DNA from: Macellibacteroides fermentans
GTDB lineage: Bacteria; Bacteroidota; Bacteroidia; Bacteroidales; Tannerellaceae
Assembly: GCF_013409575.1 (NCBI RefSeq)
Contig: NZ_JACCCY010000004.1
Span: forward strand, 248,001 to 312,000
Direction of reading: 5' to 3'
DNA length: 64,000 bases
Each line of letters starts with the position of its first letter. Within the stretch, counting starts at the first letter, position 1. Under the pieces are notes generated by a model that ran no database searches, was not told where the DNA came from, and saw only the letters and a program-made list of their open reading frames with translations. The position numbers were made by a program, and so were the translations under genes. Positions 8,625-58,006 of the stretch are shown here, in pieces.

Positions 8625-9434
8625 ATGAAAATCCTTAATTTATCACTTTTATCGGCCCTATGTATTTTACTCGCTTCCTGCGGGTCTACTAAGAATATAC
8701 CCTATCTGGTGGATGCCGAACAACTTCCAGAAAAACAATTGAAAGAAACAGCTATGATCTACGAAGCCAAAATCATGCCCAAAGATATTCTTACGGTAAC
8801 GGTAAATACCACCGTACCTGAAGCTGCCGTTCCTTTCAACCTGCCCCTGGCTCCGGCAAATACCGGATCCATCAATACCACCCAGCTCACTTACGGCGCA
8901 GGGTTGCAGAATTATATTGTCGACAATGCAGGGAACATCGAATTTCCGGTTTTGGGAACTCTTCATGTGGCTGGGCTGACTCGCGTACAGGTGCAAAATC
9001 TTATCAAAAGCAAGATATATCCGCAGTTTTTAAAGGAAGAGCCGGTTATCAACGTCCGCTTCCAGAACTATAAGATATCCGTTCTGGGTGAAGTGGCCCG
9101 TCCGGGTTCTTTCACAGCCACCAACGAGCAATGTACCCTTTTTGATGCTCTGGCTATGGCGGGCGACCTTACCATCTACGGTAAACGCGAAAACGTAATG
9201 CTTATCCGTGAGTATGCAGACGGAAGCAAAGCTGTATACCGTATAAACCTGCAAGACAAAGATCTGGTGCTTAATCCTCAGATTTATTACCTGCAGCAGA
9301 ACGATGTGCTGATTATAGAACCCAACAAAACAAAAGCCCGGGCGGCAGGAATAGGTTCGTCCGAGACCTTCACCATATCAATAATATCAACCCTTATATC
9401 GGTGGCCACTCTTATTATCACAGCCACCCGTTAA
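8625..9434 (+). CDS. Polysaccharide export outer-membrane lipoprotein (Wza/BexD family)
   Basis: A 269-residue protein with a lipoprotein signal peptide ending in the lipobox LASC (Cys near residue 20). A poly-export domain (KIMPKDILTVTVNT near residue 50) and an SLBB domain (ISVLGEVARPGSFTATNEQ near residue 143) follow. A hydrophobic C-terminal helix (TISIISTLISVATLIITATR) would cross the outer membrane, as in Wza. It should form the export channel for a surface polysaccharide with the co-oriented Wzc kinase 27 bases downstream. The pair has no local glycan synthesis genes: the preceding locus is decayed, so it may serve a polysaccharide made elsewhere. Confidence 0.9.
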   Translation: MKILNLSLLSALCILLASCGSTKNIPYLVDAEQLPEKQLKETAMIYEAKIMPKDILTVTVNTTVPEAAVPFNLPLAPANTGSINTTQLTYGAGLQNYIVDNAGNIEFPVLGTLHVAGLTRVQVQNLIKSKIYPQFLKEEPVINVRFQNYKISVLGEVARPGSFTATNEQCTLFDALAMAGDLTIYGKRENVMLIREYADGSKAVYRINLQDKDLVLNPQIYYLQQNDVLIIEPNKTKARAAGIGSSETFTISIISTLISVATLIITATR

Positions 9435-9461
9435 TTTATTATCAACCCAAAAGCAATTGGA

Positions 9462-11837
9462 ATGCAACAAGATTTAAACAACGTCTCTGTAGTGCAGGAT
9501 GAGGAACTGGACATCCGGAGTATCATATTTAAATATTTATCTTATTGGCGCTGGTTTATTGTCAGCATTGTATTTTTTACAATCGTAGGTTTTGTCTATC
9601 TTAAACGGCAGAATAATATCTACGAAAACAATGTAATCGTGCTTCTCAAAGACGAGAATACGGCTACCGAAGAGATGCTGCTCCTGCAGGATCTGGGCAT
9701 GAGTGCCGGCAAGAACAATATCGAGAACGAAATCGCCCTCTTTAAATCGCCGGACCTTATCTCCAAAGCCGTAACCTCACTCGAACTGTACACCACCTAC
9801 CGTAAGGTAACCCGCTGGAGTTTTAACGACAACGAACTGTACGGCAATGCCCCCCTTTACATCCGGTGGGAAGACATGGAACCTAAAAAGATTCCTGCAC
9901 CGGTAACTTTTACCTTCACCCCTCAGGGCAAAGGTTTCGAGGTATCCGGTCAATACGAAGAAATACCTTTTCACGGACGAATCGACACCCTTCCGGTTTA
10001 CCTCAAGCTTCCCATGGGGCGCTTCTATGTGAGCCGCAACAACGAGATTGATCCGGCTTATAAACAAGAACCCTATACCTTCGAGGCAACCATCTCTAAT
10101 CCCTCTGTACAAGCCAGACGCTTGTCGGCCGAACTGAAGGTAACCCCGTCCGCCAAGCAATCGTCGGTTCTTACCCTCAGTATACAGAGTGAGATAAAGA
10201 AGAAGGGGCGCGACTTCCTGCAACAGTTGGTCAACTTCTATAACGAAGATGCCACCAACGATAAAAACATGGTAGCCCACAACACAGCCGTTTTCATTGA
10301 AGAGCGTATCAAGGAGATCTCTGTCGAGCTGGGAACCGTAGAAAAGCAGGTGGAAGATTTCCGTCAGCAGAAACAGATCACCGATATTCAGGCAGAGGCC
10401 CAGCTTTACCTGGGGCAGACCGGTCAGAACGAGCAGAAGCGCGTGGAGATAGAAACCCAGCTCAATCTTACCCGCTTTGTTGAAGACTTTATCGCCCGCC
10501 CGGCCAATGCCAACAAGCTTATCCCCAACCTGGGGGTGACCGATGCCGGACTGGTATCCGTAATCAACGAATACAACCAGCTGCTGCTAATGAAAGAGCG
10601 GCTCGAATCATCTTCGTCCGAAAGCAACCCTGCGTTGATCCAGATGAAGCAACAGGTGTCAGGCATGCGTCAGAGTATCCAGGCTTCACTGTCTAACGTG
10701 CGTCATGCTTCCGAAATAGCTCTGCGCGACCTCAACAGACAGAATACTGTAACCAATGCCCGTATCCAGGATATCCCAGCGGTGGAGCGCGAATATAAAG
10801 ACATTTTGCGTCAGCAGGAGGTTAAGAACAACCTCTTTGTATTCCTGCTTCAAAAACGCGAAGAAACCGCCCTTACCCAGGCAGCTGTGGCACCCAAGGC
10901 CAAAATCGTGTCGGAACCCTATTCAAGCGATGTTCCTGTAGCCCCTAAGCGGGCTGTTATACTTCTGGCCTTCTTTTTGGTAGGCTGTGTCCTTCCGGTG
11001 GGAGCCATCTTCGTACGCGACCTCTTCCATACTTCCATCGAAAGCATGGACGACCTGGCACCGCTTAAAGATATTGATGTGATTGGCGATATTCAGGCAA
11101 TCACCACCCCTATGGAAACTGCGCTGGTGGTACAGGCCAACGACGACAGTCCCGTTACCGAACTCTTCCGTACCCTGCGTAACAACCTGCTGTTTATGCT
11201 TAACGAGCCCAATAAGAAGGTGGTGATGGTCACCTCTACAGTTCCCGGCGAAGGAAAAACTTTTGTCAGTATCAATCTGGCACGTAGCCTCTCGTTGATG
11301 GATAAAAAGGTACTGCTTATCGGAGGCGATATCCGCAACCCTAAGCTATCTCACGATTTAGGTATCCCCAAGGTGAATATCGGATTCTCAACCTACCTGG
11401 CAGGTATGGCTCACGGTGTGGACCAAGTGACGGAGGTATTGTACCCCAACTTTCACATTATGCAGGCTGGTCCGGTACCCCCAAATCCCAATGAATTGCT
11501 ATCCAAGCAAACATTGAACGACCTGTTTGACGGACTACGTGAAGAGTACGATTATATCATCATCGACTCGGCGCCGGTAGGTGTGGTGTCAGACTCCTTC
11601 ATGCTCAACCGCGTGGCCGATGTAACCTTGTATGTAATGCGCGAACGTGTAACGCAGAAAGATGCCGTAAACTTTGTAAACAGCATCAAGCGCGACAACC
11701 GCCTTACCGGAGTCACTGTGGTGCTCAATGCCACCACCCCTCAGGGTAAATACGGCAGTTACAAATACGGCTACAAGTACTCGTACCGCTACGGTTACAG
11801 TCAGAAGTACGGTTACGGAAAATCCAAGAAAGCTTAA
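9462..11837 (+). CDS. Wzc-type polysaccharide co-polymerase with BY-kinase domain
   Basis: A 791-residue inner-membrane protein. It has an N-terminal Wzz domain with a helix near residues 30-53, a long periplasmic coiled-coil region with a GNVR-like segment, a second helix near residues 488-510, and a cytoplasmic bacterial tyrosine kinase domain. Walker A is STVPGEGKTF near residue 592, Walker A' IGGDIRNP near 620, and Walker B YDYIIIDSAPVG near 697. The last 30 residues form a tyrosine cluster (repeats of KYG/YSY/RYGY) that is the usual autophosphorylation tail. It would control chain length and export with the Wza lipoprotein just upstream. The gene ends at a perfect terminator. Confidence 0.93.
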   Translation: MQQDLNNVSVVQDEELDIRSIIFKYLSYWRWFIVSIVFFTIVGFVYLKRQNNIYENNVIVLLKDENTATEEMLLLQDLGMSAGKNNIENEIALFKSPDLISKAVTSLELYTTYRKVTRWSFNDNELYGNAPLYIRWEDMEPKKIPAPVTFTFTPQGKGFEVSGQYEEIPFHGRIDTLPVYLKLPMGRFYVSRNNEIDPAYKQEPYTFEATISNPSVQARRLSAELKVTPSAKQSSVLTLSIQSEIKKKGRDFLQQLVNFYNEDATNDKNMVAHNTAVFIEERIKEISVELGTVEKQVEDFRQQKQITDIQAEAQLYLGQTGQNEQKRVEIETQLNLTRFVEDFIARPANANKLIPNLGVTDAGLVSVINEYNQLLLMKERLESSSSESNPALIQMKQQVSGMRQSIQASLSNVRHASEIALRDLNRQNTVTNARIQDIPAVEREYKDILRQQEVKNNLFVFLLQKREETALTQAAVAPKAKIVSEPYSSDVPVAPKRAVILLAFFLVGCVLPVGAIFVRDLFHTSIESMDDLAPLKDIDVIGDIQAITTPMETALVVQANDDSPVTELFRTLRNNLLFMLNEPNKKVVMVTSTVPGEGKTFVSINLARSLSLMDKKVLLIGGDIRNPKLSHDLGIPKVNIGFSTYLAGMAHGVDQVTEVLYPNFHIMQAGPVPPNPNELLSKQTLNDLFDGLREEYDYIIIDSAPVGVVSDSFMLNRVADVTLYVMRERVTQKDAVNFVNSIKRDNRLTGVTVVLNATTPQGKYGSYKYGYKYSYRYGYSQKYGYGKSKKA

Positions 11838-30304: not shown

Positions 30305-31408
30305 TTAAGACCTTTTGAATTGTTTTACCAGGTCTTTTATAAATAAGATCCACCCCACACTTCCCACAAAGGCCAGGAAAACAAAACCAATTAAGATTAT
30401 CGGCTTCTGGGGTGAGGTAGGGCGTAAGGGGACCGATGCCGGCTGTACAACGGTATAAACCGGTGTTACCTCCTGCACCTTGGCTTTGGCAAGTTGCAGC
30501 TGTTGTGAAATCTGGTTGTACAAACCATAAGCCAACGTAGCCTCGTTTTGCAAACGTTCCAACCGGGTCTGGTAACCTGTCATCACAATATCCAAATTTG
30601 AATCGGCAAAGTTGGCATACTTTTGCTGTGCCTCATAATAATTCTGTTGTGCCTCCTTGTACAATTTCTCTGTATATTCCAGATCCTGTTTAGCCTTATT
30701 GGTCCGGTATCGGGTAATGTAATCCTGCAGATTCTGCATTACCGTATCCGTAAGAGTGGCCGAAACCAAGGGATCCTGCATGGTTACGCTGATTGATATC
30801 ATCCCGTTTTTCTTATCTACACTCGTCACGATACGATCGCTTATTCCTTTTGCTATCTCAGCCTGTTCTTGTGTAAGCCGGAAAACATCAGGCTTGTCTG
30901 CAGTTGCGCCCTGGGGTTTATCCTTAAATAAGGATACTGCCCAACCTACAGCCTTAAACGGAGCCGATGTGATAATTCCCCACCAGGGAGTCCGTTGGTG
31001 CTTGTCCATGTATTCAAATAATCCCATAGCTTTTTCATCTGAAATGGGCTTTATTTTTACCGGAAACAGATCCACCAGAAAAGGAGTAGACTTCACAATA
31101 TCGGGATAAATTTCGGGAGATAGAGCTTCATCCCCGGATACAGCACCTATATTTATCCCAGCCATACTAGCCAATGCACCTAAATTTCCGGCACCCCCTT
31201 TTGCCTTCGCTTCAGGAGCCAGAACAACAGTCGTTGTATATTCTTTAGGAATACTAAAGGCAACAATCAGACCCAATACAACGGCCACACCACAAGCTTT
31301 GAAAATCAGTTTTTTTCCGTTCCAAACCTTATGAGCCAATTCTAACAGATCAATTTCCTGTTCCTCAATTTTCTTAAGTTTTGTTTGCTGTTTGTCTATT
31401 TCGTTCAT
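30305..31408 (-). CDS. Wzz-type chain length determinant protein
   Basis: A 367-residue polysaccharide co-polymerase without a kinase domain. It has a cytoplasmic N-terminus, transmembrane helix 1 near residues 38-55, a Wzz domain (SIPKEYTTTVVLAPEAKAKG), a periplasmic coiled coil (about 225-310), a proline-rich PLRPTSPQKP segment near 330, and helix 2 near 340-357. This Wzz plan sets O-antigen or capsule chain length in Wzy-dependent systems. It starts 15 bases after the multi-SLBB export gene stop and closes the large polysaccharide cluster. It ends near the hairpin at 30231-30276. Confidence 0.92.
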   Translation of the reverse strand: MNEIDKQQTKLKKIEEQEIDLLELAHKVWNGKKLIFKACGVAVVLGLIVAFSIPKEYTTTVVLAPEAKAKGGAGNLGALASMAGINIGAVSGDEALSPEIYPDIVKSTPFLVDLFPVKIKPISDEKAMGLFEYMDKHQRTPWWGIITSAPFKAVGWAVSLFKDKPQGATADKPDVFRLTQEQAEIAKGISDRIVTSVDKKNGMISISVTMQDPLVSATLTDTVMQNLQDYITRYRTNKAKQDLEYTEKLYKEAQQNYYEAQQKYANFADSNLDIVMTGYQTRLERLQNEATLAYGLYNQISQQLQLAKAKVQEVTPVYTVVQPASVPLRPTSPQKPIILIGFVFLAFVGSVGWILFIKDLVKQFKRS

Positions 31409-31423
31409 ACAGATTCTTTTTTT

Positions 31424-33841
31424 TTATTTGGTAAGAGTCAACAAGGTAGCAACAATAGCACCCAAAGAAGCAATAGAAGAGCTCAGACCGATAATTTCAC
31501 CCAACGACATACCTTTCTTGTCGGGTTTGGTCGGCACCACAATCTCACAGCCCGGCTGGATGTATTTGGAAGAACCGCCCTTTAACTGAGCCACGGTTCC
31601 ATTCATATAAACCACATAAGCTTTTCTCTTATTGGCACGTTGACCGTAGCCTCCCGCCTGGTCGATGTAATAACTCAAACGTTTTCCTTTCACATAAGGA
31701 ACCGTATTGGGAAACATTACCGTTCCATTTATTTTCACCGTATTCACGTATTGTGGAATAATCAGCTCATCGCCCTCGCGTACCACCAGGTCGTAATCCG
31801 ATCCCGGTGCAGCCAATGCTTTTTCCAATTGAATCCCCACCTGATATACACTGTCCACTTCCAGCTTATTTATATCGATGGAATCTTTTTCAGAACCATT
31901 CTTTGCAATCTGCAACGTCTTCTGCTGTCTTGCTATCTCTTCGTCACTCATCCGGCGGAGCAGACGGGCCCCCAACGGATAGGCTTCCGGAGTTAAACCA
32001 CCCGCCTTGCGAACCAGGTCGCTCAATCGCTCATTCTTTTGTGTTACGGCATGGCGTCCACCAAAAACAACCTCTCCTGTTACCTTAACGTTTTGTTGAA
32101 CCTGGTAACCCGGACTCCTGCGTACATAAACTTCATCAAAGGGTTCCAGTACAAAGCCGGGAGTACCGTCCACCACCAATCCGTCCTTTAGTGAAAAAGA
32201 AAAGGACTGACCTATATCCCTGCTCACCTTCATACTTTTAGGATCCTTAATGCGTCGGGCAATGTCTACCCTAACTGTTGAGGCCGACTCCATCAATCCA
32301 CCAGCCTGAATCACAAGGTCTTCCAGTTTGGTGTTTTTTGCATATGGATAGATACCCGGACGGGCAATCTCTCCGTGAATGATAAACACTCCGGCCTCCT
32401 GTAGATCATGAATACTCGGAATATATAGCATATCGTTTTTTTGTAGGGGAATATCAGCTGTTTCACCCTTCAATAACCCTTTCAAATCAATCGGAATAAT
32501 CTCAAACGTAAGGTCTTCGTGTTGTCTGCGCAGTTCGGCACGGTTCAGAAAGGCATCTCCCGTAATCCCCTCAGCCTTCTCAATCAATGTCTTAACACTG
32601 TGAACCGCATCGCTCAATTCATACAATCCTTCACGATACACGGCCCCTTTAATCTCCAGCTTGTTTTCGAAGCGATCCAATACAGCACCCACCACAACCG
32701 AGTCGCCATCCGCCAGTTTAAACGAACCGAAATCCTTATCATCTACATTGTAGATCTGGCGTTCACGTCCGCTTTTGCGCATCAACCGGATGGTTTTATT
32801 GTAGGCATCCCCCGTAAAACCACCAGCATAATGCAACAGAGTGGCCGCACTCTCACTCGATTTCATCTCGTAGAACATCGGACGTTTCACATTGCCCGAA
32901 ATATTAACCAGGCAATCGTAAGGAGGAACTATAATCACATCCCCATCCATCAGGCGAATGTCATCGTTGAATTTACCTTTCAGAATATAATCGTACACAT
33001 CCAGTCCGGCCACCTGCTTGCCGTTGCGCATCACCTGTACATTACGTAAACTACCAATCTCATTAACCCCTCCGGCAGAATACAACGCATGGAAAACCGA
33101 CGAAAAAGCCGATAGAGTATAGGTTCCCGGCACAGAAACTTCTCCCATGATGTTGATCTGGATGGAGCGGATCTGACCTAAAGTAAGCTTTATTTTAGAA
33201 GAGGTACCACCCAGCACACCCGAATAGATACTGCTGAATTTCCGTTGGATGTAAGCATTAGCCTCATTCACGGTAAGTCCGTTGAGATATACCGGTCCAA
33301 GGTTCTTCACGTTGATATTACCATCCGGCGAAATTTTCTCGGTAAAGGTATTCTGAGAAGCGCCCCAGATATCAATAATCACCTGGTCGCCAGGTCCCAA
33401 CATGTAATTGGAAGGAGTCGCTATATTGATATTGGGTTCGAAGGTCAGATTCTTATTGGTAAATACATCCCGACCAAAAATCTTAGGAACCGTATCCTTG
33501 TAGTTAAAGAAAGAGGAAATATCATCCACATCCTCCATTCCATTGTTTTTGTCTTCAAGTGTGGGGATTGCCGAATTATTGGTACGGTTCCGATTGATTG
33601 CCGCAGCCGATTCACTTTCTTTTCCTTTACCCTGTGCAGATTCATATTTCTTTTTAATACGTTCCACCTGTTCAGGAGTTACCCCTTTGGTGCGAAGTTC
33701 AATAGCCATCTGATTCTGGCTTTTACCTGCAGCCTGAGCTTGTTTTACATATTGGATCACCTGATCGTCGGTCATACTCTGGGCGAAAAGCGTGCCCGAA
33801 TAAACGGATAGACATAGGATCAATGTAATGATTTTACGCAT
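31424..33841 (-). CDS. Multi-SLBB polysaccharide export outer-membrane protein
   Basis: Taken from the internal ATG at 33839-33841, which gives a normal signal peptide (MRKIITLILCLSVYSGTLFA) and 805 residues; an upstream ATG at 33880 would add an unlikely 13-residue tail. A poly-export domain (YMLGPGDQVIIDIWGAS near residue 145) is followed by about six SLBB repeats (for example IMGEVSVPGTYTLS, ISGNVKRPMFYEM, IHGEIARPGIYPYA, VTGEVVFGGRHAV, INGTVMFPNTVPYV). The protein ends in a hydrophobic helix (IIGLSSSIASLGAIVATLLT). It is the likely export channel for the WecA-initiated polysaccharide, with Wzz encoded next. Promoter at 33878-33885. Confidence 0.92.
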   Translation of the reverse strand: MRKIITLILCLSVYSGTLFAQSMTDDQVIQYVKQAQAAGKSQNQMAIELRTKGVTPEQVERIKKKYESAQGKGKESESAAAINRNRTNNSAIPTLEDKNNGMEDVDDISSFFNYKDTVPKIFGRDVFTNKNLTFEPNINIATPSNYMLGPGDQVIIDIWGASQNTFTEKISPDGNINVKNLGPVYLNGLTVNEANAYIQRKFSSIYSGVLGGTSSKIKLTLGQIRSIQINIMGEVSVPGTYTLSAFSSVFHALYSAGGVNEIGSLRNVQVMRNGKQVAGLDVYDYILKGKFNDDIRLMDGDVIIVPPYDCLVNISGNVKRPMFYEMKSSESAATLLHYAGGFTGDAYNKTIRLMRKSGRERQIYNVDDKDFGSFKLADGDSVVVGAVLDRFENKLEIKGAVYREGLYELSDAVHSVKTLIEKAEGITGDAFLNRAELRRQHEDLTFEIIPIDLKGLLKGETADIPLQKNDMLYIPSIHDLQEAGVFIIHGEIARPGIYPYAKNTKLEDLVIQAGGLMESASTVRVDIARRIKDPKSMKVSRDIGQSFSFSLKDGLVVDGTPGFVLEPFDEVYVRRSPGYQVQQNVKVTGEVVFGGRHAVTQKNERLSDLVRKAGGLTPEAYPLGARLLRRMSDEEIARQQKTLQIAKNGSEKDSIDINKLEVDSVYQVGIQLEKALAAPGSDYDLVVREGDELIIPQYVNTVKINGTVMFPNTVPYVKGKRLSYYIDQAGGYGQRANKRKAYVVYMNGTVAQLKGGSSKYIQPGCEIVVPTKPDKKGMSLGEIIGLSSSIASLGAIVATLLTLTK

Positions 33842-33877
33842 AACTATTGGTTGTTGTTGTTTTCTGAGTTGTAAATA

Positions 33878-33885
33878 CAAAAGTA
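33878..33885 (-). promoter_or_regulatory. Predicted -7 element (TACTTTTG) before the SLBB export gene
   Basis: On the minus strand TACTTTTG lies 37 bases before the chosen ATG at 33841, in the gap after the SDR gene. It suggests that export and Wzz genes can be expressed separately from the synthesis genes. Confidence 0.5.
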
Positions 33886-46373: not shown

Positions 46374-48314
46374 TCAGCGTGATACAGGCTGCTTAATATC
46401 CAGCTTTTCGAATTCGGAATTCTGACTGATAAACTCCGGAACGATCTGCTTCATCTGCAGTACCGTATCAAGCACCAGGCCTTGACGGGCCACTTGCGTT
46501 AACGAATCAATCCGGGGTTCAATCTCCTGGTAGTTATACTCACGTACTTTAGCTACCCTGATTTTTTCGTGTGGGGTAGGGAGGGTATTCTCTTCGTTAC
46601 TCAACAGTTCTTCGTATAATTTTTCGCCGGGACGCAGACCTGTATAAGAAATCTGTATATCCACATCGGGCTCGAAGCCGGCCAGTTCGATCATCCGTCG
46701 GGCCAGGTCGGCTATCTTTACAGGTTCGCCCATCTCAAAGATAAAGATCTCGCCACCCTTGCCCATGGTACCCGCCTCCAGCACCAGCCGGCACGCCTCG
46801 GGGATGGTCATAAAGTAGCGTATGATGTCCGGATGAGTCACCGTAATGGGTCCACCCTTCTCAATCTGTTCGCGGAAGCGCGGAATCACCGAACCGTTGC
46901 TCCCCAGCACATTGCCAAAGCGCGTGGTGATAAACTTCGTTACACCCGGATGGGTACCGTTCTTGATGGCCGTAGCCAGACTCTGCACATATATTTCGGC
47001 CAACCGCTTGCTGCAGCCCATCACATTGGTGGGATTCACGGCCTTGTCCGTCGATACCATCACAAACCGTTCCACCCCGTACTTCACGGCATGGTCCGCC
47101 ATGTTGCGCGTACCCCGCACATTCACCCGTATGGCCTCGCAGGGATTGCTCTCCATCAACGGCACATGCTTGTAGGCTGCCGCATGGAATACCACCTGAG
47201 GAAGGTATCTTTCAAAAACTGCATTCACCCGTGATTCACTGCGCACATCCCCGATAACCGGCTGGAACTTCAGTTCCGGAAACTTCTCTTCCAATTCAAG
47301 ACGTAAGTTATGCATGGGCGTCTCCGCCGAGTCAAACAACACCAGCTTGCGGATGCGGAAGCGTGCCAGCTGCCGGCAGATCTCGCTCCCGATGGAGCCC
47401 GCCGCACCAGACACCAGCACCACTTTGCCCTCCAGACTATCGGCAATCTCCTGCAGGTTGATCTTAATCTCGTCGCGGCCCAGTAAGTCCTCGATACGAA
47501 CCGGACGGATGGACCGTTTAACGCCGCCATCCACCAAATCCTCCATGGGAGGCATCACCAACGTACGCAGGTTCAGCTTCTCGCAGTGACGGATCAAACG
47601 GTTCTGTTCCTCTTTGGCCTCTTTGGGATTGGTAAACAATATCCCGTCCAGGTTATTTCTTTTAATCAGGCTGGCAAGCCCGGTCTTGTCTTCCACATAA
47701 TAAACCGGCAGTCCACCGATGCTCATCTGTTTCCCTTTTGAACCATAAATAATATACCCCATTACCTTATACATGTTAAGGTAAGCCTGGGTGTTCAGGT
47801 ATACAGACGATATGCTCTGAGGGGTGGTGCCATAAATAAGCAAATTCCGTTGCTGCTTATTGTTGGTGGAAAGAATGAAATTATACAAGTTTATCAGGAT
47901 CACCCGCAGCGACAGCATCAAACCTCCGGTAGCCAGCGAATCAATAAAGAAGCAGAGAATCAAGAATTTGATAGGCTTGGGATCCCCGAAAAAGTAGATC
48001 AGGATGATAAGCAAAACCGACTTAACGAAGGAAGCCGACCCCAGACGCCACAACTCCTGCAGCGTAGAATGGCGAACCACCCCCCGGTAGGGACGGAAAA
48101 CCAGAAAAGCTGCGACGCTTGCTACGCCGGAGAAGAATGCCATGCGTACAAATACACCTAAATCTACATGAATGCCGATGGCATACTGAAGCAGGATGAT
48201 GGTAAAAAGGGATACAGTAACGGAGGTCGCCAGGTCGGCACCAAATACAATCCAACGGCTCAGGTATTTGAGTTGGGCCAGATTATTAAGTCTTTCTTGA
48301 ACAATTCTTTTCAT
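46374..48314 (-). CDS. FlaA1/WbpM/CapD-type NDP-sugar 4,6-dehydratase, copy 1
   Basis: Start taken at the ATG 48312-48314 (MKRIVQERLNNLAQLKYLSR), shared with copy 2; upstream extensions differ between the copies. The 646-residue protein has four N-terminal membrane helices (about residues 20-145), a CoA-binding-like nucleotide domain and the SDR domain. The latter carries VSGAAGSIGSEICRQLARF near 290, VSTDKAVNPTNVMGCSK near 410 (Met replaces the usual Tyr, normal in this family) and TRFGNVLGSNGSVIPRF near 450. It probably converts UDP-GlcNAc to the 4-keto-6-deoxy sugar. It follows RNA cassette b and is almost identical to 55933-57882. Confidence 0.92.
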   Translation of the reverse strand: MKRIVQERLNNLAQLKYLSRWIVFGADLATSVTVSLFTIILLQYAIGIHVDLGVFVRMAFFSGVASVAAFLVFRPYRGVVRHSTLQELWRLGSASFVKSVLLIILIYFFGDPKPIKFLILCFFIDSLATGGLMLSLRVILINLYNFILSTNNKQQRNLLIYGTTPQSISSVYLNTQAYLNMYKVMGYIIYGSKGKQMSIGGLPVYYVEDKTGLASLIKRNNLDGILFTNPKEAKEEQNRLIRHCEKLNLRTLVMPPMEDLVDGGVKRSIRPVRIEDLLGRDEIKINLQEIADSLEGKVVLVSGAAGSIGSEICRQLARFRIRKLVLFDSAETPMHNLRLELEEKFPELKFQPVIGDVRSESRVNAVFERYLPQVVFHAAAYKHVPLMESNPCEAIRVNVRGTRNMADHAVKYGVERFVMVSTDKAVNPTNVMGCSKRLAEIYVQSLATAIKNGTHPGVTKFITTRFGNVLGSNGSVIPRFREQIEKGGPITVTHPDIIRYFMTIPEACRLVLEAGTMGKGGEIFIFEMGEPVKIADLARRMIELAGFEPDVDIQISYTGLRPGEKLYEELLSNEENTLPTPHEKIRVAKVREYNYQEIEPRIDSLTQVARQGLVLDTVLQMKQIVPEFISQNSEFEKLDIKQPVSR

Positions 48315-48423
48315 TAAGTCTTTCGTAAAATGGGAAAACCAGCAATTACAATTTACAGAATTAAATAGATTCACTCGGCAAAGTTATGACAATTCCTGCG
48401 ACTAAAAAATTATTATTGGGTAT

Positions 48424-48650: not shown

Positions 48651-49298
48651 TTACCGCATAATATTCAGTATCGTAGCAATGGCCATCAGCATGGTTGAGA
48701 AGAATGAAAACTTAGACCAGTTGATGTCTGCAGGCTCCTTTACGTAAACGGTATCACCGGCGTATAGCACCGGCAGTTTCTGTACCCGGTGCTTCGGGTT
48801 CATGTAATCCTTCAGCCGGATCTCCTCCATGGACTGATCCGCCCGTACAATCACAATCTGTTTCCCCTTCTTTATATTCTTGATGCCACCCGCCATGCTC
48901 AGGGCCGAAAGCAGGTCCACCCCCTCGAAAACCTGAAACTGTCCCGGCTTGTTTACATACCCCAACACATTCAGCATCTGGTTCTGAATCTTGCGGATGT
49001 AGATAGACACCACCGGATTCACCACATACTTCTCCACGCTCTTTTCCACCGATGCGGTAAGCGCTTCGCTGCTCATCCCCGCCGCCTTTATACCACCGAT
49101 CCCCGGATACTGGATATACCCGTCGGGCAGCACCGTAATGCCGCTCAACGAAAACTCCGGATGCTCCATCACAACGATATCCAGCACATCCCCCCGGTTA
49201 ATCACATAACTCCCGTTCTGCCCTGTTGCCGAATTAACAACCAAGAACAGACACCAAAGTACCAAACCCGCAACACACCTCACATTCATATAGCACAT
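48651..49298 (-). CDS. Small SLBB polysaccharide export protein with C-terminal membrane helix
   Basis: A 215-residue secreted protein with a signal peptide (about residues 4-26, ending SATGQ) and no lipobox. It has a poly-export domain (YVINRGDVLDIVVMEHPEFS near residue 30), an SLBB domain (LNVLGYVNKPGQFQVFEG near 113) and a C-terminal hydrophobic helix (FFSTMLMAIATILNIMR). This resembles a short Wza-type exporter. The start may be the first or the fourth codon (Met). It is the last gene of a three-gene operon with the SLBB-LCP and LysM-kinase genes, 26 bases after the former. Confidence 0.85.
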   Translation of the reverse strand: MCYMNVRCVAGLVLWCLFLVVNSATGQNGSYVINRGDVLDIVVMEHPEFSLSGITVLPDGYIQYPGIGGIKAAGMSSEALTASVEKSVEKYVVNPVVSIYIRKIQNQMLNVLGYVNKPGQFQVFEGVDLLSALSMAGGIKNIKKGKQIVIVRADQSMEEIRLKDYMNPKHRVQKLPVLYAGDTVYVKEPADINWSKFSFFSTMLMAIATILNIMR

Positions 49299-49324
49299 TT
49301 ATTTTGTTAGACTCCAATCAAACC

Positions 49325-50506
49325 CTAATACACCCGTTGCTTCCTGTTTCCGGGAGCCACCAGATACGAGCGGATCTCCCGTTTAAGCAGCGACCGGTAC
49401 CCCGGAATATCCGGATAAAAGAACAACCGGTCCCCCTCCGCACTGTAATACCCCGGCAACGTACCGAAGGATAATTCGGGCACGGCAAGCATATTCCGGT
49501 ACAGAGACAACACAAACTTCCGGTCCATGTTGGTCTGGAAGAGCTCCCCGATACGGGCTATCAACTTCAGCTGATCCTCCGTATCCAGTTGGCCGAAAGC
49601 ACTGCGCATGGCACGCAACATACCCTGCTGGCGGTGCCGTCTGGCATCGTAAGCCACTTCCAGTCCCCGTACATCCAACCCCCTGGCATCCTGCCTGTCC
49701 AGAAACCGTATAAACTCCCAGGCCCCGAAGCCATCCAACCTGCCTTTTCCCGGCTTCACCCCAACCCCCTGGGCATAGGTACCGTCCAGGTTACAGTCAA
49801 CACCCCCCAGCCGGTCAATCAGACTGATAAACCGGGAGCGGTCCTGTATCAGGAAATAATCTATTTTCTGATTGAGGGAAGCCTCTACGACACGGAGCGT
49901 AGGACGAATATCCAAGGTAAAGAACAGATCCATCAGTCGGTAATCCTCTGCAAGGAAACGGGTACTGAAGGGAATATGGGTACACTGAATCCGGTTGAGC
50001 TCCGGATAGAAAGTTATCAACACATATACAGCAGGCAACCCCACATATAAAATAGAAACATGCTGCAGCTCCCGGTCCTCCTTCCCAAGGAAGAGCGAGT
50101 CGCCCGCCAAGGCCACCTCCTTATTCATCAACCCCTCCGGCACCACCGGCAACCGTACTGCGGCTCCGCCATTGCCCCGAAAGGGAATTATATATACCGA
50201 ATCATTGCGCACCGTCCGTTCCGCATCCACCCTAAAGAAATCTGCACCGGGCTTGAGTCCCCCGGCCCTGCGGATCAGCATCCCCAGGTCGGAACCCCGC
50301 TCCATGGAATACACCGCCGGACGATTCACCGCACCGCATACCGCCACCCGGATCGCCACCCTCTCACGGTTGTCCGCAAACAAAGGCAGCACCACCCAGT
50401 ACACCAGCCCCGTCAGCACCAGTACACCCAGCACCACCCAAAAGGCAATCTTCCTGCGGCGGAACACCTTGGGAGAAACCCCGTTGCTAGCAGGCATCCC
50501 CTTCAT
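49325..50506 (-). CDS. SLBB-LCP fusion protein (LytR-CpsA-Psr family, Gram-negative variant)
   Basis: A 393-residue inner-membrane-anchored protein. One helix (residues 20-43) precedes an SLBB domain (VAVCGAVNRPAVYSMERGSD, residues 54-73, to about 108). An LCP domain spans roughly 150-300: IDYFLIQDRSRFISLIDRLG at 215-234, GRLDGFGAWEFIRFLDR near 255, RRHRQQGMLRAM at 289-300. LCP enzymes transfer undecaprenyl-linked polymers to the wall in Gram-positives. The usual PRDT-type motif is replaced by IPFSTRF (about residues 178-184), so catalysis may be altered. It overlaps the LysM-kinase gene by four bases. Confidence 0.8.
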   Translation of the reverse strand: MKGMPASNGVSPKVFRRRKIAFWVVLGVLVLTGLVYWVVLPLFADNRERVAIRVAVCGAVNRPAVYSMERGSDLGMLIRRAGGLKPGADFFRVDAERTVRNDSVYIIPFRGNGGAAVRLPVVPEGLMNKEVALAGDSLFLGKEDRELQHVSILYVGLPAVYVLITFYPELNRIQCTHIPFSTRFLAEDYRLMDLFFTLDIRPTLRVVEASLNQKIDYFLIQDRSRFISLIDRLGGVDCNLDGTYAQGVGVKPGKGRLDGFGAWEFIRFLDRQDARGLDVRGLEVAYDARRHRQQGMLRAMRSAFGQLDTEDQLKLIARIGELFQTNMDRKFVLSLYRNMLAVPELSFGTLPGYYSAEGDRLFFYPDIPGYRSLLKREIRSYLVAPGNRKQRVY

Positions 50507-53184
50507 CCGTTAGCAGCCAATTTATCCAACGCATCCACCCCCTCGAAGTTACCCGCCAGAATCTCCCGCTGAAGTTTGGCAGCACGGGCGACCGACTCCT
50601 TATCGGCCGCATCAATCCGGTATCGGTCCGGCATCGGAATCCGCAGCGAAGCACCCGCAGGCACCCGGTTGGGATCCTTTATCACATCCCGGTTGGCTAT
50701 ATACACATACACCCAGAATACCTTATCCCCATAGTACGAAAGAGACAGCAAGGTAAGTCGGGTTCCCGCTTCCACCACCACTGTATCCAGCCACTGAGGG
50801 GCAACACTATCGGCATTCAAAGTACCGGCAACCAAAGCCGTATCAGGAACAGCGGCAGGCGCCGGCACCCGAACCTCCGGAACCACCTCCGTCTGCCGGG
50901 CGGTAAACCTTTTACCTGCCGTAACATATCCCAGCCAGCCGGCAATGGCCAACGCCTGGAAGGCAAGGAAGAAATACATCCATTTCCGGAGACGGAATTT
51001 CCGGAAAAGCGGTACCCGCACCGGCTGCATCTCCGGCACCAACGCACCGGAAGCCCCGTCCGCCTCCCCATCGGGATAATAGCGGTACCTTTCGGCATGA
51101 TATCCCGTATATTTGTTCAGCACATTCCCTTTCACCCCGTTGATGATGGCCCCCAGCACCGGCAGGTTGTGCGACTGCAGCAACCCCTTCAGCTTATCCA
51201 GCGCCACCCGCGAGGTAACCTCCAGGCGCACCATCAGGATAATCCCGTCCATGTGCTCCATAACACCCACCACCTCGGGCACGAACAACGCCGCCGGCGT
51301 GTCCACAATCACCACGTCGAACCGTTGGCGCACCTCCTGCAGGAAGGCAGTCAGCGCCGGATCATCATACAACAAATCCCTGCGCTCCTTTACGGTACCC
51401 GCCGCTGTAAACCAAAGCGAAGGCACCCGCGTTTCCTGCAGCACCCCCTCCAGATTACAACCTCCGGCAAGCAAATCACTCAGTCCCCGGCTGTCCGTAC
51501 GCTGCAACATCCCGCTCAGCTTAGGCGCAAAAAAATCCATATCCACCAGCAGCACCCGCAACTTCTTGTAGGCCAGCGCCCGTGCCAGCTCCAGGCTTAT
51601 CAGCGACTTGCCCTCCTGGCGTACCGAACTGCATACGGCCAACACCCTTTTATCCTTATATTTTATGGCCTGCCTCAGGTTCACCACCACACTGCTCAAG
51701 TCGCTCCAACCCGCATACCCACCGGCAGCCGGCTCCTTCAGTCCCCGGTCGCCAAAGGCATCCGGTTTTCGGTGCCCGAACGACCCCAGCACAGGCCACG
51801 TATAGAAACACTCAAAATCCCCCGTCACCATCAGCCGGTTATCCAGCATATCATACAAGAAGACCAACCCAGCGGCCACGGCCAGCCCCGCCATCAACCC
51901 CACGGCAATAAAAAAGACAATCCCCTTGTTGGCAGGCAGGGCAGGCACATCCGGCTCGTCCACCATTACAAAACGGCTCAAACTGCCCGACGAAGCACTC
52001 TGCGCCTCAATCAAATTCAGGTTCAGCTGCTTGATCGTCATAAACACCATCTCGCGGTTGCGCAACACCTGCTGCTGATTCTCATCGTTGGCATCCGGCA
52101 ACGTCCTATGCTCCAGATCCCCAATCACCCTTTCCAGCGAAGCCACGTGCGTCTCTTCACTCACCTCCGCAATCTGCAGCTCCATCAACTTGCTCATCAG
52201 CTGCGTCTTCAGCGGATTCTCCATCAGGCTCTTAATCTGCATCCGGTTCTCCAGACTATCCCGCAACATCACGTTGAGCTGCTTTATATTACTGCGTATC
52301 GCCTTCACCGAAGGATGATCCTCCCGGTTTTTGGTCAGCGCCCGTGCCAGATCCACCTCCAGGTTCATCAGCTGCACCTTTAACGGCTCTGTGAAAGCCG
52401 ACTCGTTCACAATCGTGCCGTCCAGATTCTTCAGGGCACTCTCCGTACGCTGGCGCGATGCCTTGAGGGTACTCAACGCAATCTGCGCCTTCATCAGATC
52501 CATGCGGAACGACTCCAGGTTCGCCTGCAACCTGTCCACATCCAGCATCCCTCCCGAGCTGGTAGCCGCCATAGACAACACCTGCTTGTCAAGCACATTC
52601 AGTTTCTCGTTATTATCGGCAATCTGTTTGGTAAGAAAATCGATCAGCCGCTGCGAATTACTCTGCTGATGCTTCAGCAGCAACTCATTGAGCGACTCCA
52701 TGTAGGCCGACATAATCAGCGGAATCTCCGCCGGGTGGGCAGAAGTTATCCCCACTTTGAAGATCGGCACCCGGTCCTCCCTCTTTTTATCCAGAATATC
52801 CACTTTGATAGCCCCTTTCAGCTGGTCGGCCGTAAGCGGCAGCCCCGTACGCTGCAAGGTAAGCCGGGCAATCTCCGTACTCTGCATGTTGCTGAGCCAG
52901 AAATTCTTGTCGAAATCCGACTTCACCACCGGCACATTCTTTTCAGACATATACTCGTGCACTGTTTCGTTGTAGAATACCTCGTAATCAGACTTGTACA
53001 ACTTGGGCTGTTTCACAGCAAACACCACCACCGCCATAAAAACCAACACAAAACCGCATAAAAAAACCCACTTGTGTATAAGTAACACCTGCAGGTAACG
53101 AACAATCAGATGAACCAGGTTCTCTTCTGGCTCATTGGAAGGTACGGAATTAGAATTAAAATTTAAATCAGAATTAGGATGCAT
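50503..53184 (-). CDS. Wzc-like BY-kinase with third membrane helix and C-terminal LysM domain
   Basis: An 893-residue protein. Residues 1-450 form a Wzc/Wzz unit with helices at 36-57 and 421-444 and a long periplasmic coiled coil. The kinase domain follows: Walker A SSVRQEGKS (519-527), Walker A' LLVDMDFFAPK (545-555), Walker B VVIVDTP (624-630), and a short tyrosine cluster at 692-703. The chain then continues, unlike Wzc: a third helix (735-755), a proline-rich linker, and a LysM-like domain at about 800-850 (YYGDKVFWVYVYIANRDVI, then DPNRVPAGASLRIP). The tail would be periplasmic and bind peptidoglycan or glycan. First gene of the operon, preceded by cassette c. Unusually GC-rich codon use. 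Confidence 0.9.
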   Translation of the reverse strand: MHPNSDLNFNSNSVPSNEPEENLVHLIVRYLQVLLIHKWVFLCGFVLVFMAVVVFAVKQPKLYKSDYEVFYNETVHEYMSEKNVPVVKSDFDKNFWLSNMQSTEIARLTLQRTGLPLTADQLKGAIKVDILDKKREDRVPIFKVGITSAHPAEIPLIMSAYMESLNELLLKHQQSNSQRLIDFLTKQIADNNEKLNVLDKQVLSMAATSSGGMLDVDRLQANLESFRMDLMKAQIALSTLKASRQRTESALKNLDGTIVNESAFTEPLKVQLMNLEVDLARALTKNREDHPSVKAIRSNIKQLNVMLRDSLENRMQIKSLMENPLKTQLMSKLMELQIAEVSEETHVASLERVIGDLEHRTLPDANDENQQQVLRNREMVFMTIKQLNLNLIEAQSASSGSLSRFVMVDEPDVPALPANKGIVFFIAVGLMAGLAVAAGLVFLYDMLDNRLMVTGDFECFYTWPVLGSFGHRKPDAFGDRGLKEPAAGGYAGWSDLSSVVVNLRQAIKYKDKRVLAVCSSVRQEGKSLISLELARALAYKKLRVLLVDMDFFAPKLSGMLQRTDSRGLSDLLAGGCNLEGVLQETRVPSLWFTAAGTVKERRDLLYDDPALTAFLQEVRQRFDVVIVDTPAALFVPEVVGVMEHMDGIILMVRLEVTSRVALDKLKGLLQSHNLPVLGAIINGVKGNVLNKYTGYHAERYRYYPDGEADGASGALVPEMQPVRVPLFRKFRLRKWMYFFLAFQALAIAGWLGYVTAGKRFTARQTEVVPEVRVPAPAAVPDTALVAGTLNADSVAPQWLDTVVVEAGTRLTLLSLSYYGDKVFWVYVYIANRDVIKDPNRVPAGASLRIPMPDRYRIDAADKESVARAAKLQREILAGNFEGVDALDKLAANG

Positions 53185-54476: not shown

Positions 54477-54521
54477 TTTTAAAGTATCAGAGCGGTTTTA
54501 TAAAAAGTTGATAGACATCTT

Positions 54522-54624
54522 AAAAGCAAAATATCCGACTCTCACGAACCGGATATCTCTATTTTAACCAAAACCTTAACTTAGAATATAAGAGAAAGGT
54601 ACTGTAGTACCGTGTCTTATATCG
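54522..54624 (-). ncRNA. RNA cassette copy d: small RNA or leader before the SDR gene
   Basis: Minus-strand transcript of about 103 nt with the same elements as copy c: ATAAGA/TCTTAT stem around GGTAC-TACA-GTACC, the linker AGTTAAGGTTTTGGTTA, hairpin ATATCCG/CGGATAT and TTTTGCTTTT. It ends about 45 bases before the SDR start at 54476. The spacer between the two structures differs in sequence from copies c and e. Confidence 0.65.
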
Positions 54625-54629
54625 TATTG

Positions 54630-54683
54630 CAAATATACGCCCCTTTTCCAGACTACCAAACTTATCTTAGATGTTCTATAACA
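54630..54683 (-). promoter_or_regulatory. Promoter of RNA cassette copy d
   Basis: Minus strand: TGTTATAGAACA (54672-54683), 11 bases, TTTG (54657-54660), 19 bases, TATATTTG (54630-54637). Confidence 0.75.
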
Positions 54684-54726: not shown

Positions 54727-55521
54727 TTAACGGGCTGCCATTTGCGAAAACTCCTTGATGCGTTGTTCTTCGGTGAGTTTGCATATTAACAGGGTATTGT
54801 CTTTTTCGGCGATGATGTAGCCATCGAGGCCCTGAATTACCACCATCTTGTTTTCGGGGGTATGCACCATGCAGTTGGTGCTTTCAATAAGATGGATGTT
54901 TGGTCCGATGGCAGCATTGTTGGACGCATCCTTTTCGGTACGTTCGTGTAACGAACCCCAGGTACCCAGATCGCTCCACCCGAAATCTGCCGGAAACACA
55001 TACATATCTTTGGCCTTCTCCATAATGGCATAGTCAACCGAGATACTCTTACACTTGGGAAACAACTCATCGATAACCATCTGTTCTCCGTCCGCACGTT
55101 CCATACAAAGATACCCGCATTCCAATAATAATTAGGCTGCGCAATATACCACTGTATCCATCACCACATGGTCGGCAGGCGTAACCACCAGATTCGCTTT
55201 GGGATACCGCATGGCAATCTTCCAGGCCACATACGCAATGCACGGAGCCGTATTACGCATACAAGGCTCCAGCAGAATATTCTCCTTCGGAATCTCGGGC
55301 AGCTGCTCGCGTACCAGCGAGGCAAAACTCTTGGAAGTAACCACCCAGATATGCTCCGGCGGACAAACCCCTTTAAACCGATCGGCAGTGAGCTGAATCA
55401 AGGTACGTCCACACCCCAATACATCGATAAACTGTTTAGGCCTTTCAGGCGTACTCATGGGCCAGAACCGGCTGCCAATCCCCCCGGCCATTATAACAAT
55501 GTGATTTGTATTTGATTTCAT
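54727..55521 (-). pseudogene. manC: Mannose-1-phosphate guanylyltransferase, ruined by internal deletions and frameshifts
   Basis: The start is intact: NHIVIMAGGIGSRFWPMSTP near residue 7 and PKQFIDVLG, then NTAPCIAYVAWKI and VTPADHVVMDTV, after which the frame stops at 55132. A second frame resumes with WNAGIFVWNV, and a third with EQMVIDELFPKCKSISVDYA and FGWSDLGTWGSLHE to the end at 54727. Compared with the family (about 350 residues), roughly 100 residues before WNAGIF and about 35 after it are missing. The product, GDP-mannose, cannot be made by these fragments. Cassette e precedes the gene, so its promoter has outlived its function. Confidence 0.85.
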
Positions 55522-55932: not shown

Positions 55933-57882
55933 TTAACACACTTTGGAAGTCGATACCTGTTTTATATCCAGTTTTTCAAATTCTGAATTCTGGCTGAGAA
56001 ATTCCGGGACGATTTGTTTCATTTGGATTACCGTATCCAGCACTTTACCTTGACGGGCTACTTGTGTCAAAGAATCAATCATTGGTTCAATCTCCTGGTA
56101 GTTGTACTCACGTACCTTGGCTACTCTGATTTTTTCGTGTGGGGTAGGGAGGGTATTCTCTTCGTTACTTAATAGTTCTTCGTATAATTTTTCACCGGGA
56201 CGCAGACCTGTAAAAGCAATCTGGATATCCACATCGGGCTCGAAGCCGGCCAGTTCGATCATCCGTCGGGCCAGGTCGGCTATCTTTACAGGTTCGCCCA
56301 TTTCAAAGATAAAGATCTCGCCACCCTTGCCCATGGTACCCGCCTCCAGCACCAGCCGGCACGCCTCGGGGATGGTCATAAAGTAGCGTATGATGTCCGG
56401 ATGGGTCACAGTAATAGGTCCACCCTTCTCAATCTGTTCGCGGAAGCGCGGAATCACCGAACCGTTGCTCCCCAGCACATTGCCAAAGCGTGTGGTGATA
56501 AACTTCGTTACACCCGGATGGGTACCGTTCTTGATGGCCGTAGCCAGACTCTGCACATATATTTCGGCCAACCGCTTGCTGCATCCCATTACATTGGTGG
56601 GATTTACGGCCTTGTCTGTCGATACCATCACAAACCGCTCCACCCCGTACTTCACGGCATGGTCCGCCATGTTGCGCGTTCCCCGCACATTCACCCGTAT
56701 GGCCTCGCAGGGATTGCTCTCCATCAACGGCACATGCTTGTAGGCAGCCGCATGGAATACCACCTGGGGAAGGTATCTTTCAAAAACTGCATTCACCCGT
56801 GATTCACTGCGCACATCCCCGATAACCGGCTGGAACTTCAGTTCCGGAAACTTCTCCTCCAGTTCCAGTCGAAGGTTATGCATGGGCGTCTCCGCCGAGT
56901 CAAACAACACCAGCTTGCGGATGCGGAAGCGTGCCAGCTGACGGCATATCTCGCTCCCGATGGAGCCCGCCGCACCAGACACCAGCACCACTTTGCCCTC
57001 CAGACTATCGGCAATCTCCTGCAGGTTGATCTTAATCTCGTCGCGGCCCAGTAAGTCCTCGATACGAACCGGACGGATGGACCGTTTAACGCCGCCATCC
57101 ACCAAATCCTCCATGGGAGGCATCACCAACGTACGCAGGTTCAGCTTCTCGCAGTGACGGATCAAACGGTTTTGTTCCTCTTTGGCCTCTTTGGGATTGG
57201 TAAATAAAATCCCGTCCAGGTTATTTCTTTTAATCAGGCTGGCAAGCCCGGTCATATCTTCAACATAAAAAACCGGCAATCCGCCGATGCTCATCTGTTT
57301 CCCCTTCGAACCATAAATGATGTAACCCATGGCCTTATACATGTTAAGGTAAGCCTGGGTGTTAAGGTATACAGAAGATATACTTTGAGGGGTTGTACCA
57401 TAAATAAGCAAATTCCGTTGCTGCTTATTGTTGGTGGAAAGTATGAAATTATACAGGTTTATCAGGATCACCCGCAGCGATAACATCAACACACCGGTAG
57501 CCAGCGAATCGATAAAGAAGCAGAGAATCCAGAACTTGATAGGTTTGGGAGCTCCGAAAAAGTAGATCAGGGTGATAAGCAAAACCGACTTCACGCATGA
57601 AGCCGAGCCCAGACGCCACAACTCCTGCAGCGTAGAATGGCGAACCACTCCCCGGTAGGGACGGAAAACCATAAAAGCAGCGACGCTTGCTACGCCGGAG
57701 AAGAATGCCATGCGTACAAATACACCTAAATCCACAAATATGCCGATGGCATATTGAAGCAGGATGATGGTAAAAAGGGATACGGTAACGGAGGTAGCCA
57801 GGTCGGCTCCAAACACAATCCAACGGCTCAGGTATTTGAGTTGGGCCAGATTATTAAGTCTTTCTTGAACAATTCTTTTCAT
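55933..57882 (-). CDS. FlaA1/WbpM/PglF-type NDP-sugar 4,6-dehydratase, copy 2
   Basis: Start taken at ATG 57880-57882, as in copy 1. The architecture is the same: four membrane helices, nucleotide-binding domain, SDR domain with GAAGSIGSE and NVMGCSK. The stretch from about residue 205 to 575 is identical in protein sequence to copy 1, while the N-terminal membrane part and the last 60 residues differ at scattered positions and the C-terminus is different. Upstream genes in the same orientation (aminotransferase, acetyltransferase, PglC, PglA types) suggest that this copy supplies the 4-keto intermediate for a bacillosamine-like sugar. No RNA cassette lies directly upstream of it. Confidence 0.92.
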   Translation of the reverse strand: MKRIVQERLNNLAQLKYLSRWIVFGADLATSVTVSLFTIILLQYAIGIFVDLGVFVRMAFFSGVASVAAFMVFRPYRGVVRHSTLQELWRLGSASCVKSVLLITLIYFFGAPKPIKFWILCFFIDSLATGVLMLSLRVILINLYNFILSTNNKQQRNLLIYGTTPQSISSVYLNTQAYLNMYKAMGYIIYGSKGKQMSIGGLPVFYVEDMTGLASLIKRNNLDGILFTNPKEAKEEQNRLIRHCEKLNLRTLVMPPMEDLVDGGVKRSIRPVRIEDLLGRDEIKINLQEIADSLEGKVVLVSGAAGSIGSEICRQLARFRIRKLVLFDSAETPMHNLRLELEEKFPELKFQPVIGDVRSESRVNAVFERYLPQVVFHAAAYKHVPLMESNPCEAIRVNVRGTRNMADHAVKYGVERFVMVSTDKAVNPTNVMGCSKRLAEIYVQSLATAIKNGTHPGVTKFITTRFGNVLGSNGSVIPRFREQIEKGGPITVTHPDIIRYFMTIPEACRLVLEAGTMGKGGEIFIFEMGEPVKIADLARRMIELAGFEPDVDIQIAFTGLRPGEKLYEELLSNEENTLPTPHEKIRVAKVREYNYQEIEPMIDSLTQVARQGKVLDTVIQMKQIVPEFLSQNSEFEKLDIKQVSTSKVC

Positions 57883-58006
57883 TAAGTCATTTGTAAAAGG
57901 AAAATTCAGCAAAATATATGTCAACCGATAAAAATATATTTCAAAATTTAAAATCTATGACATCTATTTTTATTAATTAATTGGTTTTAATAAATTCTAT
58001 ATTAAA

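Follow-up and report, generated by a model that had tools for sequence, protein, structure and literature searches.

Co-polymerases of the PCP-2a type, such as Wzc, Etk and BceF, have an N-terminal membrane hairpin, a periplasmic helical arm, a P-loop kinase and a tyrosine cluster, and go together with an OPX gene. The closest solved LysM domain, that of Kbp, is not known to serve as a wall anchor. In Escherichia coli Wzc, the free Y-tail governs both the assembly of octamers and the contact with Wza (PMC12881504). Gram-positive capsule loci carry LCP proteins (Cps2A, TagT/U/V) beside a co-polymerase kinase, and a 2025 review notes that it is not known exactly how Gram-negative bacteria retain their capsules (PMC12220298). 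A literature search for fusions of a tyrosine kinase, BY-kinase or Wzc with LysM or another peptidoglycan-binding domain, with subscription papers mostly outside its coverage, found no matching title or abstract. Here we describe a protein of Macellibacteroides fermentans that shares all of the PCP-2a elements listed above, OPX gene included, and continues through an additional membrane helix into a C-terminal LysM domain.

Architecture of the LysM kinase

The protein, of 893 residues, is encoded on the minus strand from 53184 down to 50503 of the window, by which we mean the whole 64-kb stretch of DNA analyzed here; the plus-strand reading of 50503-53184 is broken by stops. Its features are the following.

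50503..53184, minus strand: whole ORF, divergent BY-kinase/PCP-2a (Wzc-like) protein with C-terminal transmembrane helix and LysM, 893 aa
53014..53070, minus strand: first transmembrane helix, residues 39-57 (hydropathy 2.89)
51931..53007, minus strand: periplasmic Wzz-like and helical-arm region, about residues 60-418 (TIGR03007 at 139-468; the full-length model, of low confidence, shows long helices)
51844..51930, minus strand: second transmembrane helix, residues 419-447 (hydropathy and full-length model)
51100..51666, minus strand: cytoplasmic BY-kinase-like domain, residues 507-695 (TIGR01007, PDB matches, motifs)
51076..51111, minus strand: internal tyrosine cluster, residues 692-703 (sequence)
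50920..50982, minus strand: third transmembrane helix, about residues 735-755 (marginal hydropathy in this protein, strong hydropathy in most of its homologues; preceded by basic residues; helix 730-762 in the model)
50794..50919, minus strand: Pro/Ala-rich linker, residues 756-797 (sequence; low pLDDT in the full-length model)
50635..50793, minus strand: LysM domain, residues 798-850 (profile, PDB, AlphaFold and Foldseek evidence)
50506..50634, minus strand: C-terminal helical extension, residues 851-893 (its beginning is conserved in HU-LysM proteins)

The full-length AlphaFold model, built with nine sequences, is of low confidence (mean pLDDT 50) and served only as a consistency check on helix positions. 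NCBIfam profiles identify a chain-length-determinant region (TIGR03007, residues 139-468) and a BY-kinase domain at residues 507-695 (TIGR01007, E=9.7e-29), the latter at 100.4 bits, slightly below the curated cut-off of 108.05 bits. Sequence matches in the PDB are BceF, VpsO, Wzc, Etk and CapB, with E-values down to 1.2e-15, and the P-loop kinase domain is homologous to those of Wzc, Etk and BceF. Its Walker A (CSSVRQEGKS), Walker A' (VLLVDMDFF) and Walker B (VVIVDTPAA) motifs retain the Walker A Lys-Ser, the A' DxD and the Walker B Asp (GKS 525-527, D548, D550 and D628), all kept family-wide, GKS/GKT variation aside. In contrast to Wzc, Etk and BceF, neither the Arg of Walker A' (DxDxR) nor the second Pro of Walker B (DxPP) was found, the protein reading DMDFF and DTPAA, nor was there an E-x2-R-x2-R, the oligomerization motif of BY-kinase/PCP-2a proteins, ahead of the P-loop, where the sequence is WSDLSSVVVNLRQAIKYKDKR. 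The Walker A' and B changes are present in 14 of 14 family members, LysM-bearing or not, and are thus a family feature and no consequence of the fusion. With several catalytic residues deviating and the oligomerization motif missing, tyrosine kinase activity may be altered, as far as sequence can tell.

Five tyrosines fall within residues 692-703, so that the cluster is short and internal, as the initial annotation had it, with the extra helix and the LysM behind it; this again sets the protein apart from Wzc, Etk and BceF. An ordinary Wzc is encoded elsewhere in the window (9462-11837, plus strand), and it does have the conventional layout ascribed to it, with Wzz, GNVR and kinase domains, a tail with ten tyrosines, and no third transmembrane helix. 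In this second protein LLIGGD replaces the DxD of Walker A' (VLLIGGDIRNPKL), and Walker B reads DSAPV.

The additional helix that had been read from the sequence was found at about residues 735-755, just behind the basic stretch RKFRLRK. The hydropathy of this helix is marginal in the LysM kinase, where no window of 19 residues reached 1.6, whereas six homologues with a third helix have values of 1.8-3.1 and carry five or six Lys/Arg residues just upstream versus two to four downstream. Under the positive-inside rule this bias in the homologues argues for a periplasmic C-terminus, and the predicted topology places the LysM in the periplasm, in line with the original proposal. The linker, 42 residues long here and poorly conserved among homologues in sequence and length, would extend up to about 140 angstroms when fully stretched, enough to reach the peptidoglycan.

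By profile and predicted fold, the C-terminal domain at residues 798-850 is a genuine LysM. The Pfam LysM profile did not match the single LysM kinase sequence, and a family profile and the fold were used instead. With the C-terminal fragment as query, NCBIfam PRK11198 (LysM protein) matched residues 802-851 (E=1.5e-5), and a profile built from 23 module homologues retrieved the Kbp LysM first from the PDB (E=1e-7), followed by other LysM proteins. The AlphaFold model of the domain (pLDDT 91) has a beta-alpha-alpha-beta arrangement plus an additional C-terminal helix; Foldseek ranked LysM domains at the top (probability 1.00, best E=8e-4), and its matches include those of phage and injection-system baseplate proteins. 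Profile searches (PRK11198, Kbp) and structure prediction thus agree on the LysM-like fold that had been suspected, and the limits originally given for the third helix and the LysM proved accurate. The resemblance to Kbp/YgaU and the baseplate LysM domains is one of fold and profile; identity is only 27-33%, and the protein contexts are different.

Distribution and origin of the LysM-helix module

A search for BY-kinase plus LysM architectures recovered the fusion in three further Bacteroidales genomes (L004, L036, L043+L062), which brings the full kinase-TM-LysM architecture to four genomes, M. fermentans included. The order of kinase, short tyrosine cluster, transmembrane helix and LysM recurs in a congener (55% identity, single contig), in a Paludibacter MAG (L036) and in a MAG of an uncultured member of the Bacteroidales, in which two contigs with an exact 32-residue overlap each carry part of the gene (L043+L062). 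Three genomes encode kinases in which the third helix is followed by a short stub in the periplasm and LysM is absent (L040 4071-6350, L041 2997-5324, L042 8048-10375); the LCP gene starts directly after each, and they provide natural LysM-less controls. Six genomes encode kinases without any extension (L037-L039, L046-L049). In the kinase tree, the root of which is unsure, the forms with LysM or TM are separate from the extension-less forms, and the stub forms fall among those with LysM, which suggests that the module was gained and that LysM was later lost in the stub forms. The family is rare, occurring in 4 of 393 sampled Bacteroidales genomes, in 2 of 125 in a family-level sample and, in a phylum sample of 395, in the M. 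fermentans genome only; since these searches were samples with few candidates scored per genome, rarity is approximate. Four frames of ~1,000 aa with LysM in family f148 were considered as candidates for more fusions; two of them were inspected and proved to be unrelated proteins that look secreted.

A second M. fermentans protein (G000:C1) is 48% identical to the LysM kinase over residues 778-877 of the latter. It belongs with 19 relatives to a set in which an HU-family DNA-binding domain stands at the N-terminus in 20 of 20 members (Pfam), and Pfam calls LysM in 5 of the 20. These conserved HU-TM-LysM proteins of Bacteroidales (G000:C1, L002) resemble the LysM kinase in carrying a homologous C-terminal LysM-helix module after a predicted transmembrane helix and linker, but have the HU-type domain at the N-terminus where the LysM kinase has its kinase. 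Across the two families the module shows 15 invariant columns in 23 rows. Comparison of the third-helix region with the TM region of the HU-LysM proteins gave a best E-value of 0.18, which is not significant, and transfer is therefore supported for the LysM-helix module only. For this module, the sequences make a domain transfer between the kinase and HU-TM-LysM families likely, and the simplest reading would be that the 3' end of an HU-TM-LysM gene was taken up by a kinase gene. In the module tree a single clade is not rejected (p-AU 0.49) and appears in 34% of bootstrap trees, with 88 columns that cannot tell one capture from several.

The presence of a separate HU-LysM gene in the same genome is the one observation that would favor an artefact, either two genes fused by frameshift or assembly error, a danger raised in the initial annotation, or a chance LysM-like stretch. 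Against this stand the repetition of the architecture in four genomes, including the single-contig congener and the Paludibacter MAG, and the modest identity of the module to the genome's own HU-LysM gene, which is not that of a misassembled copy, as well as the agreement of AlphaFold and Foldseek on the fold. We regard the probability of an artefact as negligible.

HU-TM-LysM genes were observed in L002 (1495-2976, minus strand) and also in L052, L053 and L056-L061, near a MoxR-type ATPase gene in L002, L052 and L061. It is possible that their products link DNA and cell wall. A protein with an HU-type N-terminus and a C-terminal LysM is also encoded at L066 999-2702 (plus strand), in a genome from a different class of the same phylum; HU-LysM proteins are thus not confined to Bacteroidales. 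We found no literature on HU + LysM or HU-CCDC81 + SPOR combinations.

Neighboring SLBB-LCP and Wza-like genes

Two conserved neighbors lie downstream of the kinase.

49325..50506, minus strand: partner gene, TM + SLBB + LCP (LytR-CpsA-Psr) (Pfam LCP E=3.3e-8, SLBB E=1.4e-7)
48651..49298, minus strand: Wza-like (OPX) gene (Pfam Poly_export E=3.3e-19)

The start of the SLBB-LCP gene overlaps the kinase stop by four bases. The order kinase, SLBB-LCP, Wza-like is seen at all eight loci with enough sequence, namely the window, L033 (congener), L036, L037, L038, L040, L041 and L042; an SLBB-LCP gene also lies downstream of the kinase in L046-L048 and L062, and at L049, a second copy in genome G393, no LCP gene was found within 1.4 kb downstream. 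The neighbor's LCP domain scores 34.3 bits in Pfam versus a cut-off of 24.6. The canonical LCP motif is IPRDT; in the neighbor the catalytic Asp (a Mg ligand) and the IPRDT Arg were not found, most of an 11-member alignment reading VGLPAVY and HIPHSA or HIPFST, and later Arg residues (YIRF, RNQRQ) are mostly kept. The role of the Arg and Asp residues of LCP proteins is taken from PMC7831098. As in the Gram-positive capsule loci, the LCP gene stands beside a co-polymerase kinase; unlike Cps2A and TagT/U/V, the M. fermentans LCP adjoins an OPX gene in Gram-negative order, carries SLBB, and is without the IPRDT Arg and first Asp. The product of 49325-50506 is a Gram-negative protein with a ComEA-like SLBB domain fused to an LCP with altered catalytic motifs.

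The window holds three co-polymerase/OPX sets: an ordinary Wzc with OPX (8625-11837, plus strand), a multi-SLBB OPX with Wzz (30305-33880, minus strand) and the LysM kinase triad (48651-53184, minus strand). From gene names assigned by reading, we take the surroundings to be a Wzx/Wzy-type cluster with flippase, glycosyltransferases, polymerase, a WecA-like transferase and dTDP-rhamnose-type genes. A WbpM/FlaA1-like epimerase gene occurs twice (46374-48374 and 55933-57924, minus strand; 94.1% identical over 1,957 bases), the copies flanking the triad, and a third stretch, 54521-54683, is a repeat at 88%; duplication or recombination is possible. A mannose-1-phosphate guanylyltransferase-like gene (54727-55521, minus strand) is broken into two short ORFs, apparently lacks its middle part, and is probably a remnant.

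Possible roles of a LysM with predicted periplasmic location

The reading we prefer, to which we give about an even chance, is that the LysM protein is an inner-membrane co-polymerase of Wzx/Wzy-type polysaccharide export whose ring subunits grip the sacculus. Two helices would bracket the periplasmic helical arm, the cytoplasmic BY-kinase-like domain with its short tyrosine cluster would come next, and the third helix would bring the chain back to the periplasm, where the flexible linker presents the LysM. Each subunit of the ring would then hold the sacculus, so that the channel across the envelope is fixed in place in the wall, and the tyrosine cluster, tethered at both ends, would still control assembly by phosphorylation, with less freedom than a loose tail. 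This is supported by the LysM fold and profile, the charge bias, the recurrence in L004, L036 and L043+L062, the module held in common with HU-TM-LysM proteins, the gene triad, and the kept P-loop Lys/Ser and Walker Asp. Counting against it are the kinases of L040-L042, whose third helix without LysM indicates that LysM is dispensable in some relatives, the Kbp LysM, which is not known as a wall anchor, and the absence of the A' Arg, the Walker B second Pro and E-x2-R-x2-R.

The closest fold and profile matches also include phage or injection-system baseplate LysM domains, and we know of no action on peptidoglycan by the LysM of Kbp or of several of these baseplate proteins. Together with the conserved SLBB-LCP and OPX partners nearby, this would fit a LysM-type domain that docks to a partner protein (SLBB-LCP or the Wza-like OPX) or to the exported polymer and not to peptidoglycan. 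However, the SLBB-LCP and OPX genes are kept beside LysM-less kinases, so docking to them needs no LysM, and we consider docking possible though rather unlikely. The unbroken chain from kinase through tyrosine cluster and third helix to LysM would also allow a sensor, in which the state of the wall alters kinase activity or ring assembly and times export to wall growth; yet no signalling linker is evident, the linker is poorly conserved, and kinase activity itself is putative, which makes a sensor improbable. The wall-gripping co-polymerase could be taken further, to a Gram-negative exporter anchored in peptidoglycan by the LysM kinase ring, with SLBB-LCP ending the polymer or transferring it near or onto the wall. 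We hold this to be distinctly improbable; if true, it would be a capsule system coupled to the wall, a type that has until now been described for Gram-positive bacteria.

Little is known of how Gram-negative cells hold in the wall an export channel that spans the envelope, and of how they retain polysaccharide, and a co-polymerase with its own LysM suggests a direct, testable wall link for a Gram-negative polysaccharide exporter. Sister kinases, some with the module and some lacking it, are natural controls, and a tyrosine cluster confined between the kinase and the membrane offers a test of the need for a free Wzc Y-tail. The architecture of the LysM kinase is both real and rare, and its LysM may anchor the exporter in the wall.
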